The notes under the pieces were generated by a model. It did not search any database. It was given only the letters and a program-made list of their open reading frames with translations, and was not told the DNA's origin. From Thermogemmata fonticola (GTDB lineage: Bacteria; Planctomycetota; Planctomycetia; Gemmatales; Gemmataceae), in NCBI RefSeq assembly GCF_013694095.1, contig NZ_JACEFB010000001.1, forward strand, positions 62,001 to 126,000: 64,000 nt of DNA, in the 5' to 3' direction. A program made the translations under genes and the position numbers. Below, piece by piece: positions 32,407 to 62,449 of the stretch (position 1 is its first letter; each line of letters starts with the position of its first letter).

Positions 32407-33795
32407 TTAATGTATCTCATCTTCCTTCGGTGTAAGAAATCCCCAATTTAATGGCTGGTCTTGTGTGTAGTTTTTATGCAGTATCAATGCTATTTCTGCT
32501 TTCGCCATTTCATAACCTAAGTAGAACGCATGTGATGGGGATATATTGTGATCAATTTGTAATAACTGTTGAAATAACTTGAATGGATCTGTTCCTTGTA
32601 GATAAATTGTATTGTTAAATATATATATATTTCCCAGTTCGGCGATAATTCTATAATTAGGGTCTTTAACATTATGAGCTAATTCAAGTATTGTATTTTC
32701 TCCTATTTCTCTTAATTTTGAATCTCGTAATACTACTAAATTTGGTTCAATTCTTTTGGGTATTGTTTGGTGTTGTACTGCATAAAAAACAAGACGCCTG
32801 GCAAGATCCCACTCTTTGATCGACGAACGTGACCAATTCGCGACACTAGTGGTCAACACACTTTGGACTTTCAACTCTTGGCAGATCGCTGCAAGTATTA
32901 CATTGATGCCGGCAGAATCGACTTCTGTCAGTTCCGTGATGTTACCGACACCCATGAGCATGGGAATATCTGGATACTCATAACGTACTTTAGCATACCT
33001 TAGCAGTGAATTAAAAAAACAGTGTCCTATAGGCTCAAGGATTGGATCGACCCGGATTTTCGCGTTCCATCGCAAAAGCTGTTCAGCATTTTTATACAAA
33101 GTTGTTAGATCATTTACCGTGTCTGGTATAACTACGAATTCTACATTCGGAAAACGCTCAAGCCAATGCGGTACATATTTGATATTAGTGGAATTGATAC
33201 TTAATACCACATTAGCTCCACCTTCGAGTGCAAGCTCTATTTCCTCAGGTTTTAATGAATCTATTGATATGCGAAACCCCAAGTCGCATAGTCGTTGTAT
33301 TACATCTTTTACCTGATGATAAATATTACCTGGTTCACATCCTATATCGATAATATCCGCTCCATCCGAACGATACTTTTGAGCCTCTGCGAGAACTGTA
33401 TCCCATGGTTTGCTGGGTACATTGTTGATTTCTGCAATTATTTCAATGTCGAATTTACCATAATCGTCCAAGAGCTTGTTACTTTTCAAGTTGAAGTATT
33501 CTGGAAGGTCAAGTAAATCGCGTGGCCCATGCTTTGCTGGAATTCCCGTCGCCTGAGTTACAATCTCCGGTGAGCCGCGGCATAACCCAGGAAGTAGTAT
33601 AATATCACCAATTACATTTTTGGGAAAATGGCGTGCAACCCATTCCGTTGTCATTAATGCTGCTACAGAGATATTTAATGTGATGATTTGGTAATCGAAA
33701 TCGATTTTCTGCGATAATTCTGCGACTATCCGACGCAAGGCGGGTTCCGCTAGTTTTCCAGTAACAAACAGCCAGCGTTTTCTCTGCTTAATCAT
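32407..33795 (-). CDS. DUF6513/dihydropteroate synthase-like protein
   Basis: The start is ATG 33795 (MIKQRKRWLFVTGKLAE). An N-terminal DUF6513-type domain of ~100 residues precedes a TIM-barrel with pterin-binding features: GADIIDIGCEPGN, FRISIDSLKPEEIELAL and a GVGNITELTEVDS segment. This family was described in methanopterin-using organisms, including planctomycetes, and is linked to tetrahydromethanopterin (C1 carrier) synthesis or use. The enzymatic step is not certain. Base composition is clearly AT-rich throughout. It is co-oriented with the GT2 gene 20 bases upstream. Confidence 0.82.
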   Translation of the reverse strand: MIKQRKRWLFVTGKLAEPALRRIVAELSQKIDFDYQIITLNISVAALMTTEWVARHFPKNVIGDIILLPGLCRGSPEIVTQATGIPAKHGPRDLLDLPEYFNLKSNKLLDDYGKFDIEIIAEINNVPSKPWDTVLAEAQKYRSDGADIIDIGCEPGNIYHQVKDVIQRLCDLGFRISIDSLKPEEIELALEGGANVVLSINSTNIKYVPHWLERFPNVEFVVIPDTVNDLTTLYKNAEQLLRWNAKIRVDPILEPIGHCFFNSLLRYAKVRYEYPDIPMLMGVGNITELTEVDSAGINVILAAICQELKVQSVLTTSVANWSRSSIKEWDLARRLVFYAVQHQTIPKRIEPNLVVLRDSKLREIGENTILELAHNVKDPNYRIIAELGNIYIFNNTIYLQGTDPFKLFQQLLQIDHNISPSHAFYLGYEMAKAEIALILHKNYTQDQPLNWGFLTPKEDEIH

Positions 33796-33814
33796 GATAT
33801 CGAATATAAAGACT

Positions 33815-34591
33815 CTATGTAAACTGTGGATCTTTAAAACATAACCAGCAATCATTATATAATTCTGATAACTTTGGTGTTAATACTGGAACCTTTTGAG
33901 GAGATAGATAAACTTCATCAATTATTGATGTGAGAAATGTGGCCTTCGCAGATAATTCTATATGTACAAATATATCTTTTGACTGGATAGGGATACGTTT
34001 TAGGAATGCTGTACGATAGAGCTTACATCCACTCAATGGATCCAACAAGGGTATGCCGTATATCCAACGAAATAGGTATCTCCATACGATAGCGAAACTC
34101 CCGTGCCAAGGATAAGATGAATGATAAGGAAGCCCTGAGAAGACGCGCCAAAATAATCGCCAACCGCCACCCAGGATCTTCCATAGGGGTGGTGTCGGCA
34201 ACCCTGTGCGACAGCCATTTACGATGTCTGGTGGTTTGTGAAGCAGATCGTCAACCTGATGAATCCGTTCCCACATATGTTTGAAATCCTTTGCGGAATA
34301 TGGATAATCCAAGGTGAGGTGCAAGAGGTATGGATAGTTGACCCGTAACAATGCTCTTTGCAAGTAAGTCCCTACTCCCTTTGTTTCATCGACTTGAGTC
34401 CAGATTATTCCTTGGAGAGGTGGTAAACGATTCTCCAACGCCGTAATATTCGAGCTGCTGCTGACAATAATGATTTCGTGAGGTAGACTCATACGGTTTA
34501 GTGTCTCTTGCCACTGGCTTAGCAAGGACAAATGCGGCGTGACCTCTGTCACGGTTAGCACTAGACTTATCCCCTCACTTGTGTGAGACAT
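33815..34591 (-). CDS. Family 2-like glycosyltransferase
   Basis: The 258-residue product has an N-terminal GT-A strand pattern (GISLVLTVTEVTPHL ... HEIIIVSSSSNI). An acidic LLHLTLDYPYSAKDF takes the place of the usual DxD, and the later segment DPLSGCKLYRTAFLKRI resembles DPM1-type enzymes. No membrane helix is obvious. It would transfer a sugar from a nucleotide donor to a lipid or glycan. With GT39 and the ABC exporter nearby it suggests cell-envelope glycan assembly. The missing second Asp of DxD lowers certainty about activity. Confidence 0.75.
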   Translation of the reverse strand: MSHTSEGISLVLTVTEVTPHLSLLSQWQETLNRMSLPHEIIIVSSSSNITALENRLPPLQGIIWTQVDETKGVGTYLQRALLRVNYPYLLHLTLDYPYSAKDFKHMWERIHQVDDLLHKPPDIVNGCRTGLPTPPLWKILGGGWRLFWRVFSGLPYHSSYPWHGSFAIVWRYLFRWIYGIPLLDPLSGCKLYRTAFLKRIPIQSKDIFVHIELSAKATFLTSIIDEVYLSPQKVPVLTPKLSELYNDCWLCFKDPQFT

Positions 34592-54182: not shown

Positions 54183-55580
54183 ATGAGACGGGATAAGTCA
54201 TGGGGATGGAGCTTGTATGCGGCAGTGATTCTCTGCGGATATGCTTGCTATCCTTTGGCCGCAGCCGAAGGGCAACCTGGGGGACGCCCGAATATCATCA
54301 TTTTGCTCGCCGATGATTTGCGTGCCGACGCGTTAGGATGCATGGGCAATCCCATCATCCAAACGCCCAGCATCGACGCTCTAGCCCAAAAGGGGACGCT
54401 CTTCCGCAATGCGTTCGTGACGACATCGATTTGTGCAGTGAGTCGGGCCAGCATCTTGTGTGGCCAATACGCCCGGCGGCACGGCATCCATGATTTCAAC
54501 ACCGACTTTACAGCGCAAGCGCTGGCTCAAACCTATCCCTTGCTCCTGAAGAAGGCAGGCTACCGCATCGGTTTTATCGGCAAATACGGAGTTGGCCGCA
54601 ATCTCCCTGCCCAGGAGTTCGACTACTGGCGGGGGTTTCCAGGGCAAGGTTTTTACTTTGCGAAAGAGAAGGTGGGTACTCCCCAGCATCTGACGGCACG
54701 CATGGGAGACCAGGCCTTGGAATTTCTCGCAGGTTGCAAGCCTGAACAACCGTTCTGTCTGTCAATCAGCTTCAAGGCTCCTCATGCTCAGGATGGGGCG
54801 GTCCGCGAGTTTCCACCGGACCCGCGAGACGAGAAGCTCTATGCCGATGCGGTCATTCCTCGACCTGCGACGGCTGAGGAGCGATTCTTCCGGCTGCTTC
54901 CATCCTTTGTGCAGAAATCCGAGGGTCGCCGGCGTTGGGAACGGCGCTTTGCGACCGACGCCATGTTTCAGCAAACGGTGAAGGACTATTATCGTCTGAT
55001 CACAGGGATGGACCGCGAAATCGGACGAATCGTAGACGCTGTCGCCCGCCGAGGCTGGGAACGCCAAACCCTCTGGCTCTTCACCTCCGACAACGGGTTT
55101 TTCCTAGGTGAACGCGGCATGTCGGATAAGTGGCTCATGTACGAAGAATCCATCCGCGTCCCCCTCATTATTATGGATCCCCGCTTGCCGTCTCAACTTC
55201 GAGGGCGCAAGGTCGACGCTATGGCTCTCAACATTGATATTGCTCCCACCATCCTTGATTGGGCCGGTGTACCCGTGCCGCAATCGATGCAGGGAAAGAG
55301 CTTGCGTCCTTGGGTCGAAGGGCAGAATGTTTCCTCATGGCGGCGCGATTTCTTCTACGAGCATCACACATTGCCCAAACTCATTCCCCCTTCGGAAGGA
55401 GTGCGGACAGAACGCTGGTCCTACATTCGCTGGCTGGCTCAGGAACCGGTGATCGAAGAACTTTACGACATCCAGGCCGACCCGCGGCAAGAGAGAAATC
55501 TGGCCGGACGTGCTGAATATCGTGCGACACTGGAGGAATTGCGCCTCCGCTGGTCTCAACTTCGCCAAGAGTTGGAATAG
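54183..55580 (+). CDS. Secreted sulfatase
   Basis: The 465-residue protein has a signal peptide (LYAAVILCGYACYPLAAA). The type I sulfatase core has metal ligands DD at 44-45 (LLADDLRADALG) and the formylglycine site Cys84 in CAVSR followed by GQYARRHG. Later it has KAPHAQDG, FTSDNGFFLGERGMSDKW and the C-terminal strand YDIQADPRQERNLA. The site is Cys-type, so an anaerobic- or FGE-type maturase is needed. Planctomycetes carry many such enzymes for sulfated polysaccharides; the substrate is unknown. Confidence 0.9.
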   Translation: MRRDKSWGWSLYAAVILCGYACYPLAAAEGQPGGRPNIIILLADDLRADALGCMGNPIIQTPSIDALAQKGTLFRNAFVTTSICAVSRASILCGQYARRHGIHDFNTDFTAQALAQTYPLLLKKAGYRIGFIGKYGVGRNLPAQEFDYWRGFPGQGFYFAKEKVGTPQHLTARMGDQALEFLAGCKPEQPFCLSISFKAPHAQDGAVREFPPDPRDEKLYADAVIPRPATAEERFFRLLPSFVQKSEGRRRWERRFATDAMFQQTVKDYYRLITGMDREIGRIVDAVARRGWERQTLWLFTSDNGFFLGERGMSDKWLMYEESIRVPLIIMDPRLPSQLRGRKVDAMALNIDIAPTILDWAGVPVPQSMQGKSLRPWVEGQNVSSWRRDFFYEHHTLPKLIPPSEGVRTERWSYIRWLAQEPVIEELYDIQADPRQERNLAGRAEYRATLEELRLRWSQLRQELE

Positions 55581-55615: not shown

Positions 55616-56893
55616 TTAAGCGCTGACGTAAGGCAAGACGTAGGGGCCTTTGGGAATCACCGCGAGGCGGGCCTCCGGGCCATACTCAGCGAGGGACTCA
55701 GCCACGGCTTGCTCGACCGAGGGGGCAGGCTCCACCTGACAGGCGCGCAAGGTCTCCGGCGGCAACCCCTGGGTGACCACCTTGACCTTACATTTGGCCA
55801 AGACCTTGGCCAGCTCTTCCAGTTGCCATTGATCCATCACAAAGTAATCGGTCTCCAGAATCCGTTTTTTAAAAGCTTGCAAATCGGGATTTTCCCGAAT
55901 CAGTTGCTGGAACTCCGGGCTGCCTAATCCTTCTGTCAGACTGGCGGCCAGTATGATGGTACCTCCCGTTTTGACGATGGGCAGAGCACCGGTCAAACCT
56001 TTGACGGCTTGATACCAGGTGGTGTCAAGTGGGTAGCCAGCACAACTGGTTACCACCACCTCGACGGGTCGGGGAACCGGGGCAGCGACCACCTGACGGC
56101 AGAATTGCACTCCCTGTTGCCAGGCTTGAATCATATCCCCGGCCCAGACACCGGTAATCCTCCGCTGGCCATCGATGCACACATTCACGATGAAATCGCA
56201 CCCCGCCATCCGGGCAATCCGCGTGTTCTCCTCGTGGACAGGGTTACCTTCCAAGATGCCGCAATCGGCGTTCGGATGTTCCAGAAACCGGGGGCCATGC
56301 CAGACTTTGACTGTCTCTAGCGCAGCAAGTCCGGGACAAATGACCTTTCGGCCTCCAGAAAAGCCGGCCATCAAGTGCGGTTCGATCAAACCTGTGGTGA
56401 TTTTCAGCTCGGCCCGCGTGTATCGCTTATCGATCCAGACCGGGACGCCGTTGGGAGTGGTACCCAAATAGTCATGCTCTTCCAATCTCTTGCCGTAGTG
56501 GTTTTCACAGCGATACTGGTTAGCAATTTCCTCGCCCACCAGTTCGATCAATTCCTCTCCCACGTTCGGACGGTGCAACCCCGTGGCAATCAGAATGGTG
56601 ATCCCTTCGCGGGGTACCCCGGCTTCTTCGAGGGTGCGCAGGAGGGGGGGCAGAATCTGCTTGTTGGGAACGGGACGGGTAATATCACAGATGACCACAC
56701 AGGCAGTACGCTTTCCGCGAGCCATCTCCGAAAGCGGAGGCGTGCCGATGGGGTTGCGGAGACTTTCTTCGATGGCCTGCTCGGCATTCGCTAAGGGTGG
56801 GACTTCTCGTAGTGATAGCGGAGGTGCGATCAAACGGTCATCCGGAACTGTGACCTCCAGACCAGTCTTGCCGTAGTCCAGTTTCACTCTCAT
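55616..56893 (-). CDS. larA: LarA-type nickel-pincer-dependent racemase/epimerase
   Basis: The 425-residue product (ATG 56893; an open GTG at 56932 is possible) has the LarA signatures: ATGLHRPN (first active-site His), [21 protein letters not shown] with the second His and the Lys that carries the pincer cofactor, and [12 protein letters not shown]. LarA homologues racemise lactate or other 2-hydroxyacids by hydride transfer. The substrate here is unknown. LarC is encoded 12 kb away on the same strand; LarB and LarE are not in the window. Confidence 0.88.
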
Positions 56894-56959
56894 GGTCGAG
56901 CCGTGATTGACACTGAAAACGAGTTCGGCCACTCCTTCGCAAACGAGCGGGTACCCCCC

Positions 56960-57049: not shown

Positions 57050-57322
57050 ATGTCGATTGACAAAAGCCTGAAGCGTAGAGGTGGGAAAGCTCAAGTGCGT
57101 TGTGTTCTGACGCGTGCCGAGCGTGTCTTGAAAATGATGGCAGACGGGACCTGGACGGAAGGTCGCAGCCCGTATGGCCTTCCGAAGACTCGGGTTCAGA
57201 AGGTGGTACTGAAGAAGCGCTCGAAGAAAGAGGAAGCCTCAGCGACGTCGACCGCCGCTGCTCCGGCGGGGGCCACTGCGGCATCATCGGCCAAGTCTGC
57301 AACATCAGCCACTAAGAAATAA
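57050..57322 (+). CDS. PVC-type small basic protein
   Basis: The 90-residue product begins MSIDKSLKRRGGKAQVR and continues VLTRAERVLKMM ... TEGRSPYGLPKTRVQKV. This is the conserved small basic protein of the Chlamydiae/Verrucomicrobia/Planctomycetes (TIGR04137 type). An Ala/Ser/Lys-rich tail follows. Its role is not known; ribosome or nucleic-acid association has been suggested by composition. It is a good phylum marker here. Confidence 0.93.
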   Translation: MSIDKSLKRRGGKAQVRCVLTRAERVLKMMADGTWTEGRSPYGLPKTRVQKVVLKKRSKKEEASATSTAAAPAGATAASSAKSATSATKK

Positions 57323-57430: not shown

Positions 57431-58666
57431 ATGGCCCAGGCCATGACATCTCGCGCCGTGATTGCCCTCGGTAGCAATTTGGGGAAGCGGGAAGACTCCA
57501 TTCGCACAGCCATTCAACGCCTTCGTGCCGAGCCTGCTGTACGGCTTATCGCTGTCTCTCCCATTTATGAAACAGCCCCGGTCGAATGTCCTCCCGGTTC
57601 CCCTCCGTTCCTCAATGCGGCGGTGCTCGTCGAGACAGACTTGACGCCGGAGGAATTGTTCGGCCGACTTGTGACGATCGAAAGACAATTGGGGCGTTGC
57701 CGCGGAGAACGGAACGCCCCACGCACCATCGACCTGGATTTGCTGTTTTACGATCAATTGGTGGTACAAACGGCGGAGCTGACAATTCCGCATCCCCGCT
57801 TGGCGGAGCGTGCCTTTGTGCTGGTGCCGCTGGCTGACATTGCGCCGGATTGGAAACATCCGCTTCTTCATCGTTCCGTCCAGGAGTTGCTCCAGAACTT
57901 ACCCGCAGAGGCTCGCGCTCAAGTCCAGTTGTGGACGGCCGATGATCAACCGGGAAAAAGGCGATTGCTTCATCAACGGGCCTTGGTCACGGGATCCACG
58001 AGAGGCATTGGTGCGGCGATCGCCGCGGCCTTTGAACGGGAAGGAGCTTGGGTGATCCGCCATGGCCGACAGGTTCCGGTCCAGCAAGCTGGCGTCTTGG
58101 TGGCGGACTTAGCTGACCCTCAAGCCGTCGAACGCTTGGCTCTTCAGGCTTGGGGGACAGAGGGACTAGATGTTCTGGTGTGCAATGCGGGGGTCGATGT
58201 CTTGACCGGTCCAGCGGCTCAGTGGAGCTTCGAGCAGAAACTGGAGGCGTTGTGGGCAGTGGATGTTCGCGCAACCATCCAGCTCTGCCGTCTCATCGGA
58301 GAACGAATGCAAAGCCGGGGACACGGCTGCATTTTGACCTTGGGTTGGGACCAAGCCGACTATGGAATGGAAGGAGACAGTGGCCAACTCTTCGCAGCGG
58401 TGAAGGGCGCGGTGATGGCCTTTACTCGCAGTTTAGCGAAGACTCTGGCGCCGGAGGTGCGCGTCAACTGCCTGGCCCCAGGCTGGATTCGCACCGCCTG
58501 GGGCGAGAGCGCCTCCCGAACCTGGCAGGAGCGGGTACGGCAGAGCACCCCGCTGAGGCGCTGGGGATTGCCTGAGGATGTCGCTGCTGCTGCGGTGTGG
58601 CTAGCCAGCAGCGAGGCGGCTTACGTCACCGGCCAAATCCTCCGCATCAACGGCGGCGCATGCTGA
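57431..58666 (+). CDS. HPPK (FolK)-SDR fusion protein
   Basis: Residues 1-160 are 6-hydroxymethyl-7,8-dihydropterin pyrophosphokinase: AVIALGSNLGKRED, SPIYETAPVE and RTIDLDLLFY (98-107), with the HPRLAERAFVLVPLADIAP end. From about 183 a short-chain dehydrogenase domain follows: TGSTRGIG (187-194), NAG (252-254), Lys325 and a C-terminal YVTGQILRINGGAC. The usual catalytic Tyr is Phe321 (QLFAAVKGAV), and the Ser strand reads ILTLGWD without Ser. The kinase part should act in folate or pterin synthesis. The SDR part may be a pterin-binding or altered reductase domain. ATG 57443 is an alternative start. Confidence 0.88.
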   Translation: MAQAMTSRAVIALGSNLGKREDSIRTAIQRLRAEPAVRLIAVSPIYETAPVECPPGSPPFLNAAVLVETDLTPEELFGRLVTIERQLGRCRGERNAPRTIDLDLLFYDQLVVQTAELTIPHPRLAERAFVLVPLADIAPDWKHPLLHRSVQELLQNLPAEARAQVQLWTADDQPGKRRLLHQRALVTGSTRGIGAAIAAAFEREGAWVIRHGRQVPVQQAGVLVADLADPQAVERLALQAWGTEGLDVLVCNAGVDVLTGPAAQWSFEQKLEALWAVDVRATIQLCRLIGERMQSRGHGCILTLGWDQADYGMEGDSGQLFAAVKGAVMAFTRSLAKTLAPEVRVNCLAPGWIRTAWGESASRTWQERVRQSTPLRRWGLPEDVAAAAVWLASSEAAYVTGQILRINGGAC

Positions 58667-58952: not shown

Positions 58953-60032
58953 TCAATCCAACAGCATGGAGGCGTTCATCACAATCTGATCGTTCCGGCC
59001 CGACAGGGACTGTAACACACGCCAAGAGGTGCCCGCCGGATTACGCTGACTCGTATCAGAGAACTGCAGGGGGCGGACTGAACCATCAGCGAAGTAAGCG
59101 TTGACGACCCCAACGTGATAGCTGCTGAAGAATTGCCAACCGGGACCACCCGGACCTTGGGGTGGCACTAAGCCGAACTTGGTACCAAAGGCACCGCTAC
59201 CCGCCCAAGTGTGCTTGACGTTCAGGTTGCTAGGGTTGCCTCCGGGGAGTTGCGGCCAAGGCTTGGTCCACGGGGCACCGCCACCCAAGGTTTCCAGAAA
59301 CATCAGAGTACTACTGCTCCCATCCCGGATTTGTTCCACCTTGACCTTGCTATTGTTGAAGAAGACTCCTTCATACAGGGCGAGATTCTCGCCTGGACCG
59401 TCAAACGGGGAGGAAGTGATGGCATCTCGTCCTAATGCTCCAGCAACGCCCAGGTAATTCGTCTTTCCCAAGGCACTATAATTTGGGAAGTAATAGAGGA
59501 CGGCTCCGGCTGCATTGGGTCCCGTCGTAATGCCATTCGGGGCGTAGGTGTGCAAGCATGCGGCCGAATGTTGGCGATCATCTGTATCAGCGGGACAGAC
59601 ATATACCTTGATGTTTGTGTGGGCCATCGTCCAGTCTGGGTTCACACTCCACCACTGTCCTACGAATGTGGAGCTTTTCATGTTGGGCATCTGATCCCAA
59701 ACCGCGTTCTGTTCCACGTAGGGTAGGAGATACCACAGCACACCCGTGAAATGTACTGTTCCTCCCGTGAATATGTTGCCTGGGTCGTGCACATTCGGTT
59801 CGGGGCCATTGTAACCCGGAGGCAAATTGCCGTAATTGCTTTGGTAGTTGTGTGCAGCCAAACCCAGTTGCTTGAGATTATTCCGGCATGTCGTGCGGGC
59901 GGCGGCTTCGCGGACCTTCTGCACCGCAGGCAGAAGCAGTCCAACCAGGATGGCAATGATTGCAATCACCACGAGCAGCTCAATGAGCGTGAACCCTCGG
60001 AACAGTGACAGACGGGCACGTGCGCGAGTCAT
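58953..60032 (-). CDS. DUF1559 pilin-like protein 1
   Basis: GAGGAGG precedes ATG 60032. The 359-residue product has a type IV prepilin N-terminus ([33 protein letters not shown]) with cleavage after Gly and Glu+5. The DUF1559 domain follows: [17 protein letters not shown] near the N-terminus and the C-terminal [14 protein letters not shown] (HX9DG-like) motif. Hundreds of these occur in Gemmata-type planctomycetes; they are thought to be exported pseudopilins or fibre subunits. The small lipoprotein follows 42 bases downstream. Confidence 0.92.
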
Positions 60033-60516
60033 GGATGAAACCTCCTCATATGGATGAGGCCCACCCTGTTGGTCCATTCACTTGGGGGGCTCATTCCATT
60101 GCCTAAATGGAACGAAACATAGGTTATAGGGATCGAATGTTCCCTACTGTCCCCTCAAGGAGAAGAACACGGCTATATAAAATGCACCCTGGTAGAGTCA
60201 TGCAGGAAAGGCAGTTCGTAAGCGAGTCATCCTGCATCGACTCCACCCAAGCTTGTGCCGACAAGTCAGATTGTGAAGGCTCACTCATAAAATGTCAAGT
60301 GGAATCCTAATTTTTTTCTCACGAGGTAATCCGTTGAGCGTCTGGGTACTGGAAGATAGTGGGAAGCGCTCTTTTACGATCTCGGGGCGATATCTTTTTG
60401 AGACCGCCAATCTACAATAGCAACCAACTGGAGAGACTCAAGCCACCAAACACAGCAAGATTGTTCACCACGAAAGCATGATTGTTGGCTAAGTTTTGGC
60501 GCCGCACATATCGCAA
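60033..60516. other. Intergenic region upstream of pilin gene 1
   Basis: About 480 bases without a credible gene. The short plus-strand frame at 60107-60310 lacks a ribosome site and family resemblance. The segment should hold the promoter of the pilin/lipoprotein unit. Confidence 0.45.
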
Positions 60517-60871: not shown

Positions 60872-61885
60872 TTACTCTAGCACGGAGAATTGGATCAGTT
60901 GACCATCGTTGGTACCGCCGAACCTTTGATATTGGTACCACTCATTGCTGAACCACTGCGTAGTGGTTCCCTGGGCGGCAACGCCCTTGCGCACGGGTGT
61001 CACTGAGCCATCAGCCCGTGCAAAGTTCACCACCGACGTATGCCGGCTGCCGAATGTGTACCATTGGGCGGGAATGAGGAGTCCCCAAGCATGCGCCCCA
61101 TAGCCCACGCCAAACCAAGAAGCTGCGAAATCGCGAGCACCGGTTTCCCTACCCATGAGTGTTTCACCGAACATCGCGGTGTTGGAGTTGCCGTCCCGAA
61201 TCGAAGCCAGCCGTTCTGCAGAGCGATTGTAGAAGGGACCGCGATAGGTGTTGTAAAACGCACTGCTTTGGGCATTGCCGATAGCCCCCGCCGAGCCAAC
61301 ATAGTTCGTCTTGCCGAAGAGGTTGCCCGTGGGGTTCGGGTAGTAACCGCCGGTGAACGTCAAATTTTCCATGTAGGCTGTGATGAAAACACCCGTGGTG
61401 TTGGAATCCGGTTCATCCGAGGGGCAGAGGAATGTCTTAATGCGATATTGGGCAACTTGGAAGTTGATCGCATTGTTCCACCACCCAGTGTTGGCCGCTG
61501 CAGGGGGGTTGTTCTCAAAGTACACCAACCCTACGGTTTGTCCTTGTGGATTGACATTCGTGGATATTTGCTGGTAGATGTTGCCCTGTTCCAACTGCGG
61601 TAACAAGAAGGTAAGAACTCCGTTGTGTGGCGCGTTCCAGTTGAAGCCGGAACCAATGGGCGGCCCCACACCGCCAGGCGGTAGTTTGCCGTGTTGGCTT
61701 TCGTAGTTGTGGGCTGCAAGGGCGATTTGCTTGAGATTGTTCTGGCACGTCGAACGGGCGGCGGCTTCACGGACCTTCTGCACCGCAGGCAGAAGCAGTC
61801 CAATCAGGATGGCAATGATCGCAATCACCACGAGCAGCTCAATGAGCGTGAACGCTCGTCGTCCCAACAATGAACCACGAAACAT
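60872..61885 (-). CDS. DUF1559 pilin-like protein 2
   Basis: GGAGG precedes ATG 61885. The 337-residue product begins [18 protein letters not shown] with the same prepilin helix as pilin 1 ([25 protein letters not shown]). It continues [20 protein letters not shown] and ends with [13 protein letters not shown]. The two N-terminal coding regions are nearly identical at the DNA level, while the C-terminal halves diverge. Together with the 62-aa lipoprotein and the terminator it forms a second copy of the same two-gene unit. Confidence 0.92.
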
Positions 61886-62449
61886 GATGAAGACCTCCAA
61901 ACTCGCCGTCAAAATGTACTTCCTGCACTTTTTGACCGGCATGAACTCTGCCGTTGCTCCTCACGGCGGTACCAAGGGTAACAAACGACCCCACTGACGA
62001 GTGGTGGAGGAGAGAGAATCATTCAGTACCTACCTAAACGTTCTGTCACTCGTTCCGCAGGGCTGTAGGGGAGAGTTAGAAAAAGTGTAACTGCCTCGGC
62101 GGAATGACAGCGCACTGGGTAGTACCCGGAGCTATATTATGAAGGCGGCATCATCAACTGTCAACTGATGTTTTTTGTTTTTTCTCAGGAGTCACGAGTC
62201 CAGAGGAGGGTGGGTTGTTTTCTCCGTTCGAGGGAAGAAAGCAACATACTACGTGATGCTCCATAAGAAGGGAATGTGGCAGGACTGTACGCAGGCGGGC
62301 CGGGGTTGCCCCCTAGCATTGGGCCACTCTGCGGTTAGGAGTAGTGAGGGATGGATGGTGTGGCAGCGAGAATGGTTTGTGGCTTCCTCCCGGTCTTGCC
62401 ATTCGTTCATGTGTCGTTCACAATGCCGTAAGACAAGTAAGGAACGCCG
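61886..62449. other. Intergenic region between pilin unit 2 and hisA
   Basis: This gap of about 560 bases carries the divergent promoters of the pilin gene and hisA. The plus-strand frame starting at 62175 runs out of frame into hisA and looks like chance. No repeat or hairpin of note was found. Confidence 0.45.

Follow-up and report, generated by a model that had tools for sequence, protein, structure and literature searches.

We analysed a window of 64,000 nucleotides from Thermogemmata fonticola (order Gemmatales, family Gemmataceae; contig NZ_JACEFB010000001.1, positions 62,001 to 126,000), in which one ORF encodes an HPPK domain joined to an SDR domain. The window also contains a gene related to the neighbours of stand-alone homologues of this SDR in other planctomycetes. 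The features considered here are:

57431..58666, + strand: HPPK-SDR fusion gene (ORF of 411 aa)
57458..57847, + strand: HPPK (FolK) domain, residues 10–139 (PF01288, TIGR01498)
57968..58663, + strand: SDR domain, residues 180–411, with the altered site Asp278/Gly305-Trp306-Asp307/Phe321/Lys325 (Pfam, alignment, model)
32407..33855, − strand: methanopterin-type DHPS-like gene, 482 aa, a probable pathway partner (profile and Pfam)

The HPPK half matched PF01288 (residues 10–139; 134.7 bits, cut-off 25.7) and TIGR01498 (137.6 bits, above the curated cut-off of 54.1), and the fusion gene gave the only HPPK match in the T. fonticola genome. Residues Arg89, Arg91, Arg98, Asp101 and Asp103, which we take to be those of the ATP/Mg site, were kept in 59 of 60 fused sequences, the remaining row having a gap. 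A previous sequence-only reading of this DNA had described the kinase motifs as intact, and this description holds; as judged from its domain matches and retained site residues, the HPPK half is a FolK-type kinase. The SDR half matched PF13561 (residues 190–409; 134.8 bits, cut-off 27) and PF00106 (residues 183–361; 86.1 bits), and the predicted structure of the fusion protein had a mean pLDDT of 92.8 and a pTM of 0.84. Among the matches listed (best 80 of 133), the nearest named relatives of the fusion were Gemmataceae MAGs. One fusion match (L038, G019:C287:26140-27378) contains a single in-frame TAA.

The SDR half has the Rossmann SDR fold and the TGxxxGxG motif of classical SDRs, its Gly-rich loop reading TGSTRGIG at residues 187–194, but not their Asn-Ser-Tyr-Lys set, which here corresponds to Asp278-Trp306-Phe321-Lys325, with Lys alone retained. 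The strand at the usual Ser position reads CILTLGWDQ and has no Ser. The sequence-only reading was thus correct as to the retained TGxxxGIG motif and Lys325, the replacement of Tyr by Phe321 and the loss of Ser, but it overlooked a third change, Asp278 at the position of the catalytic Asn. After the removal of ten exact duplicates, 119 distinct orthologues (60 fused and 59 stand-alone) were invariant for Asp278, Gly305-Trp306-Asp307, Gly312, Phe321 and Lys325. In a set of 129 rows, comprising these 119, the window sequence, eight more sequences and the insert-containing sequence from genome G315, Asp278, Trp306, Asp307, Gly312 and Lys325 were found in all 129 and Gly305 in 128. The conservation of the Phe and of the Ser loss in homologous fusions, which the earlier reading had proposed to check, was confirmed, Trp306 and Phe321 being invariant across the 60 fused sequences. 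The same reading had named a relative with Tyr at 321 as evidence against itself; there is one (L169, from outside the class), with Phe in the other 128 of the 129. As a control, all 11 paralogous SDRs from related genomes retained the full Asn-Ser-Tyr-Lys set, and a tree (a quick search with SH-aLRT only, in which long branches meet at the join) separated the 129 family rows from the 11 paralogues. On this tree the fused rows need three label changes, of which the starred branches force only one, so that the fusion may have arisen once or several times. Since three of the four classical residues have given way to others that are fixed in the family, these data indicate a family with its own site rather than the decay of one gene, and the SDR half is, on its sequence, a member of a planctomycete SDR family with its own active site. 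Two orthologues have unusual sequences: that of G315 (L187) is lengthened by some 25 residues inserted ahead of the GWDQ-type strand (SWDQ in this case), and the site of that of G361 (L175) has drifted (GWDA, GMETD), with Asp278, Trp306, Phe321 and Lys325 remaining.

The closest fold and the closest PDB sequences, among the matches listed, were those of FabG-type classical SDRs (3emk_A by VIA-align, Z 31.0 over 226 residues, 2.2 Å, 36% identity; 2p68_A by sequence, 179.2 bits); however, FabG-type SDRs have Asn, Ser and Tyr where the planctomycete SDR has Asp, Trp and Phe. PTR1 and FolM share with it the SDR fold and a pterin-related role. They nevertheless carry the motif TGX3RXG (PMC1971073), whereas the planctomycete SDR has TGxxxGIG, with Gly192 invariant where Arg would be expected, and we therefore rejected membership of the FolM/PTR1 group on the basis of this motif. 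PTR1 also retains the Tyr, as Tyr194, together with Asp181 and Lys198 (PMC1971073), whereas the planctomycete SDR has Phe321 in place of the Tyr and, unlike PTR1, a Trp (Trp306) where Ser is usual, followed by Asp307. Neither PTR1 nor FolM appeared among the 50 fold matches listed (Foldseek; VIA-align), an absence that excludes nothing. HPPK is likewise joined to a pterin-pathway enzyme in the Francisella HPPK-DHPS protein (8sl9), but the partner here is an SDR; a literature search limited to titles and the openings of abstracts found no HPPK-SDR fusion named.

The fusion was present in 38 of 59 related genomes, consisting of 31 of 37 from the same family and all seven from a second family of the order. 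Of the 15 further genomes from the class, 14 had a stand-alone SDR orthologue (49–59% identity), the exception being G052, and all 15 encoded HPPK elsewhere in the genome. The HPPK-SDR fusion is confined to one order. The best 80 of 133 loci in a scan of named genomes comprised 32 fused and 48 stand-alone genes. The fused gene was missing from six of the 37 family members, versus roughly three expected from incompleteness alone (summed completeness); these six Gemmataceae (G006, G012, G015, G022, G035 and G036) have Mch but neither HPPK nor the SDR, and their completeness ranges from 75 to 95%, with three of at least 93%.

The genes around the stand-alone SDR point to tetrahydromethanopterin (H4MPT). 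The SDR gene often lies directly upstream of a methanopterin-type DHPS gene (DUF6513, Pterin_bind, PterinBD-DUF4346; TIGR00284), with a pterin carbinolamine dehydratase gene sometimes between the two, and the typical order is DHPS-like, PabB, PabA, DUF447 and a beta-RFAP-synthase-like GHMP protein. Beta-RFAP synthase and methanopterin-type DHPS indicate H4MPT rather than folate. We counted neighbours in 43 stand-alone loci with at least 1.6 kb of downstream sequence (from the best 80 of 133 relatives, five loci with short flanks being excluded). A DHPS-like gene lay within 6 kb of the SDR in 29 of these 43 loci, PabA and PabB in 17 each, DUF447 in 10, and a beta-RFAP-synthase-like gene and Pterin_4a in seven each. 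The PabA profile used for counting was built solely from members shorter than 270 aa, and the cluster named PabA includes longer GATase proteins (376–401 aa) that are perhaps CarA. No DHPS-like gene was found within 6 kb in the other 14 loci; in three of them the next gene is unrelated to H4MPT (GD_AH, ILVD/EDD and PMT_2 families) and in a fourth (L086) it had no family match. Within 6 kb of the fused genes, none of these H4MPT neighbours was found in any of 28 loci (four more set aside; best 80 of 133). The NCBIfam scores of the beta-RFAP synthase neighbours (126.6 versus a cut-off of 328; 105.6 versus 113.5) and of the DHPS-like neighbour (185.8 versus 256.65) fall below the curated cut-offs, but the Pfam domains of the latter pass. 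Pfam searches with neighbour ORFs picked by cluster centrality left five of 10 proteins without a family, and several of these ORFs are probably antisense frames; the genes examined thereafter were selected by amino-acid make-up.

In T. fonticola itself, the DHPS-like protein of the window scored 624.1 bits with the profile made from the SDR neighbours and was above the cut-offs for DUF6513 (77.2 bits), PterinBD-DUF4346 (37.2 bits) and Pterin_bind (32.9 bits); in other planctomycetes, relatives of its gene immediately follow the gene for the stand-alone SDR. Elsewhere in the genome, outside the window, a RimK-type ATP-grasp gene comes after Mch, and a PTPS gene is nearby. In four genomes from outside the class (G114, G157, G170 and G184), mch is on the same contig as the SDR, at about 4 kb or less, and the SDR, DHPS-like and PabB genes occur together in all four.

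A survey of 391 genomes of the phylum (completeness of at least 85%; SDR profile threshold E ≤ 1e-60) yielded 64 with SDR matches and 67 with Mch, 63 being on both lists. Inspection of weaker SDR matches in 15 genomes revealed orthologues above the E cut-off in G170, G268 and G361, and in G315, which has Mch, an SDR split by its insert (193.7 + 146.7 bits) and so missed by the cut-off; the remaining 11 gave no match above 179.9 bits. After correction for G315, both genes were present in 64 genomes, the SDR only in one (G361), Mch only in three members of one family (G212, G314 and G368) and neither in 323 (Fisher p = 1.2e-68, or 9.3e-67 uncorrected, values that are overstated because the genomes are related). 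Among the families listed, at least 11 contained the two together, and four of these families lie outside the class. Thus, the SDR family follows the distribution of the H4MPT genes and lies with H4MPT biosynthesis genes, and we consider it very probable that it belongs to the H4MPT pathway. The pterin link drawn by the sequence-only reading is sustained in this form, through gene clusters and co-occurrence with Mch, but its FolM-like character is not. In the genomes with one gene only, G212 has an H4MPT cluster (L177) with Mch, PCD and a DHPS-like gene and without an SDR orthologue, all three Mch-only genomes encode a DHFR-family protein, and G361, without Mch, keeps its orthologue beside PabB (L175).

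The final step of H4MPT synthesis is attributed to the DHFR homologue DmrA in alphaproteobacteria and to the flavoproteins AfpA/DmrB or DmrX elsewhere (PMC6193120), and Chistoserdova (2016) reports the Afp gene as unrecognised in planctomycete genomes (PMC5020050). In our survey, AfpA/DmrB (TIGR02699, cut-off 192.45 bits) was found in none of the 391 genomes (best score 33.9), nor in that of T. fonticola. With no AfpA over the cut-off and no DHFR-family match in the genome, the SDR of the H4MPT cluster is the natural candidate reductase. We therefore propose, giving the assignment about an even chance, that the SDR half is an NADPH-dependent dihydromethanopterin reductase acting at the last step of H4MPT synthesis; we infer its substrate, step, cofactor and proton route, the pathway assignment drawing on gene clusters and the phyletic profile and that of the exact step on elimination and analogy. 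It would catalyse the same reaction, at the same place in the pathway, as DmrA, AfpA/DmrB and DmrX, for which lineages use different proteins (PMC6193120 and PMC5020050); DmrA is a DHFR homologue and the others are flavoproteins, whereas the partner in the fusion is an SDR.

Under this proposal, the HPPK half would make 6-hydroxymethyl-7,8-dihydropterin pyrophosphate for both folate and H4MPT synthesis, and the SDR half would use NADPH to reduce the C6=N5 bond of 7,8-dihydromethanopterin, yielding H4MPT. The NADPH, bound by Lys325 and the Gly-rich loop, would donate a hydride from its nicotinamide, and the N5 proton would come from an ordered water molecule, perhaps placed by Asp307 or Asp278. 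In the second reduction catalysed by PTR1, the proton is likewise described as coming from water and not from Tyr (PMC8996148 and PMC1618733). An enzyme performing only a reduction of this second, water-protonated type could dispense with the proton relay through Tyr that ordinary SDRs use, and Phe321 and Trp306 would be free to line the pterin pocket; Trp306, Asp307 and Asp278 may bind the pterin or water. The fusion would couple the maker of the pterin pyrophosphate to the possible finisher of one of the two cofactors. The planctomycete gap in H4MPT synthesis may thus be filled by an independently evolved dihydromethanopterin reductase of SDR fold, devoid of the catalytic Tyr and fused to HPPK in one order, an interpretation that we hold to be equally balanced between right and wrong. 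Several observations count against the exact step: the SDR without Mch in G361 and Mch without the SDR in G212, G314 and G368; the six Gemmataceae that keep Mch and have lost HPPK-SDR, beyond what incompleteness explains; the 14 of 43 stand-alone and 28 of 28 fused loci (best 80 of 133) without a DHPS-like gene within 6 kb; the HPPK partner, which also serves folate; and the scores of the beta-RFAP synthase and DHPS-like neighbours below the curated NCBIfam cut-offs.

The SDR might instead act at another reductive step of H4MPT synthesis, such as the one in which the condensed pterin-RFAP intermediate has its ribofuranosyl ring converted to a deoxyribitol chain. The gene cluster and the co-occurrence with Mch would fit such a role equally, as would the position of the SDR directly upstream of the DHPS-like gene, the maker of the condensed intermediate. 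However, a carbonyl-type reduction would be expected to require the SDR Tyr, and it is the final reductase that has been reported to lack an assigned gene in planctomycetes (PMC5020050), so we regard a different H4MPT step as unlikely. The proposal that the altered SDR half is a pseudoenzyme scaffolding HPPK or holding its substrate, as the sequence-only reading had suggested, takes its appeal from the fact that, of the four classical catalytic residues, three have changed. The substituted positions and Lys325 are nevertheless near-invariant, the Gly-rich loop is kept, and the SDR is found unfused in the remainder of the class and also outside it, which makes it unlikely that serving HPPK was its original role; the idea of mere cofactor or substrate holding is also disfavoured by the absence of a recognised dihydromethanopterin reductase from planctomycetes. 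We therefore rejected a degenerate pseudoenzyme as the main reading and consider a scaffolding role highly improbable.

The SDR could also act mainly as a dihydrofolate reductase replacing FolA in organisms using ThyX, a role suggested by the many genomes without a DHFR-family match (44 of 59), by its fusion to HPPK and by G361, which has the SDR and neither Mch nor DHFR. In the 59 genomes, ThyX was found in 46, ThyA in 14 and a DHFR-family match in 15, with none in the other 44 or in T. fonticola by PF00186, which may not cover the Methylorubrum DmrA. The 13 genomes with a strong DHFR match were the 13 with a strong ThyA match; 10 of them had the SDR orthologue, as had 40 of the 44 DHFR-free genomes. 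The SDR does not, therefore, track the loss of FolA. Its presence tracks Mch instead, and two genomes of the same class (G052 and G319, family f8; about 99% complete) have no SDR orthologue, Mch or DHFR-family match. These counts weaken FolA replacement as the sole role, and we consider it distinctly improbable as the main one, although the SDR may have a dual action, on dihydrofolate as well. At two loci with a DHFR-family gene (L200 and L201), ThyA was not found beside it by tblastn with a single ThyA query, and the gene may encode either FolA or a DmrA.

A dihydromethanopterin reductase of this type would be of interest because planctomycetes are central to the debate over the origin of H4MPT-linked one-carbon metabolism, and the usual gene for the enzyme finishing the cofactor has been reported as unrecognised in them (PMC5020050). 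A literature search limited to titles and the openings of abstracts, with few subscription papers among them, retrieved no assignment of an SDR to H4MPT synthesis. The naming of one gene makes this gap directly testable, since a clear residue signature and a phyletic profile accompany it and a complementation assay already exists. In addition, a natural SDR that has dispensed with the catalytic Tyr in many planctomycete families, and shows no signs of decay, bears on which pterin reductions need this residue.

The surroundings of the fusion gene in the window include a small basic protein directly upstream (57050-57322, + strand; TIGR04137, 72.2 bits, cut-off 50) and, beyond it, a homologue of LarA-type nickel-pincer racemases (55616-56932, − strand; Lar_N, 204.7 bits; NCBIfam Ni_dep_LarA, 429 bits, slightly under the cut-off of 460). 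In 12 loci, relatives of the small basic protein precede the fusion gene, and LarA-type homologues are likewise found upstream of it in 12. An SGSH_C-type sulfatase is encoded at 54183-55580 (+ strand), and a tandem pair of genes with prepilin-like N-termini and similar layouts in the ORF list is found at 58953-60077 and 60872-61942 (− strand).
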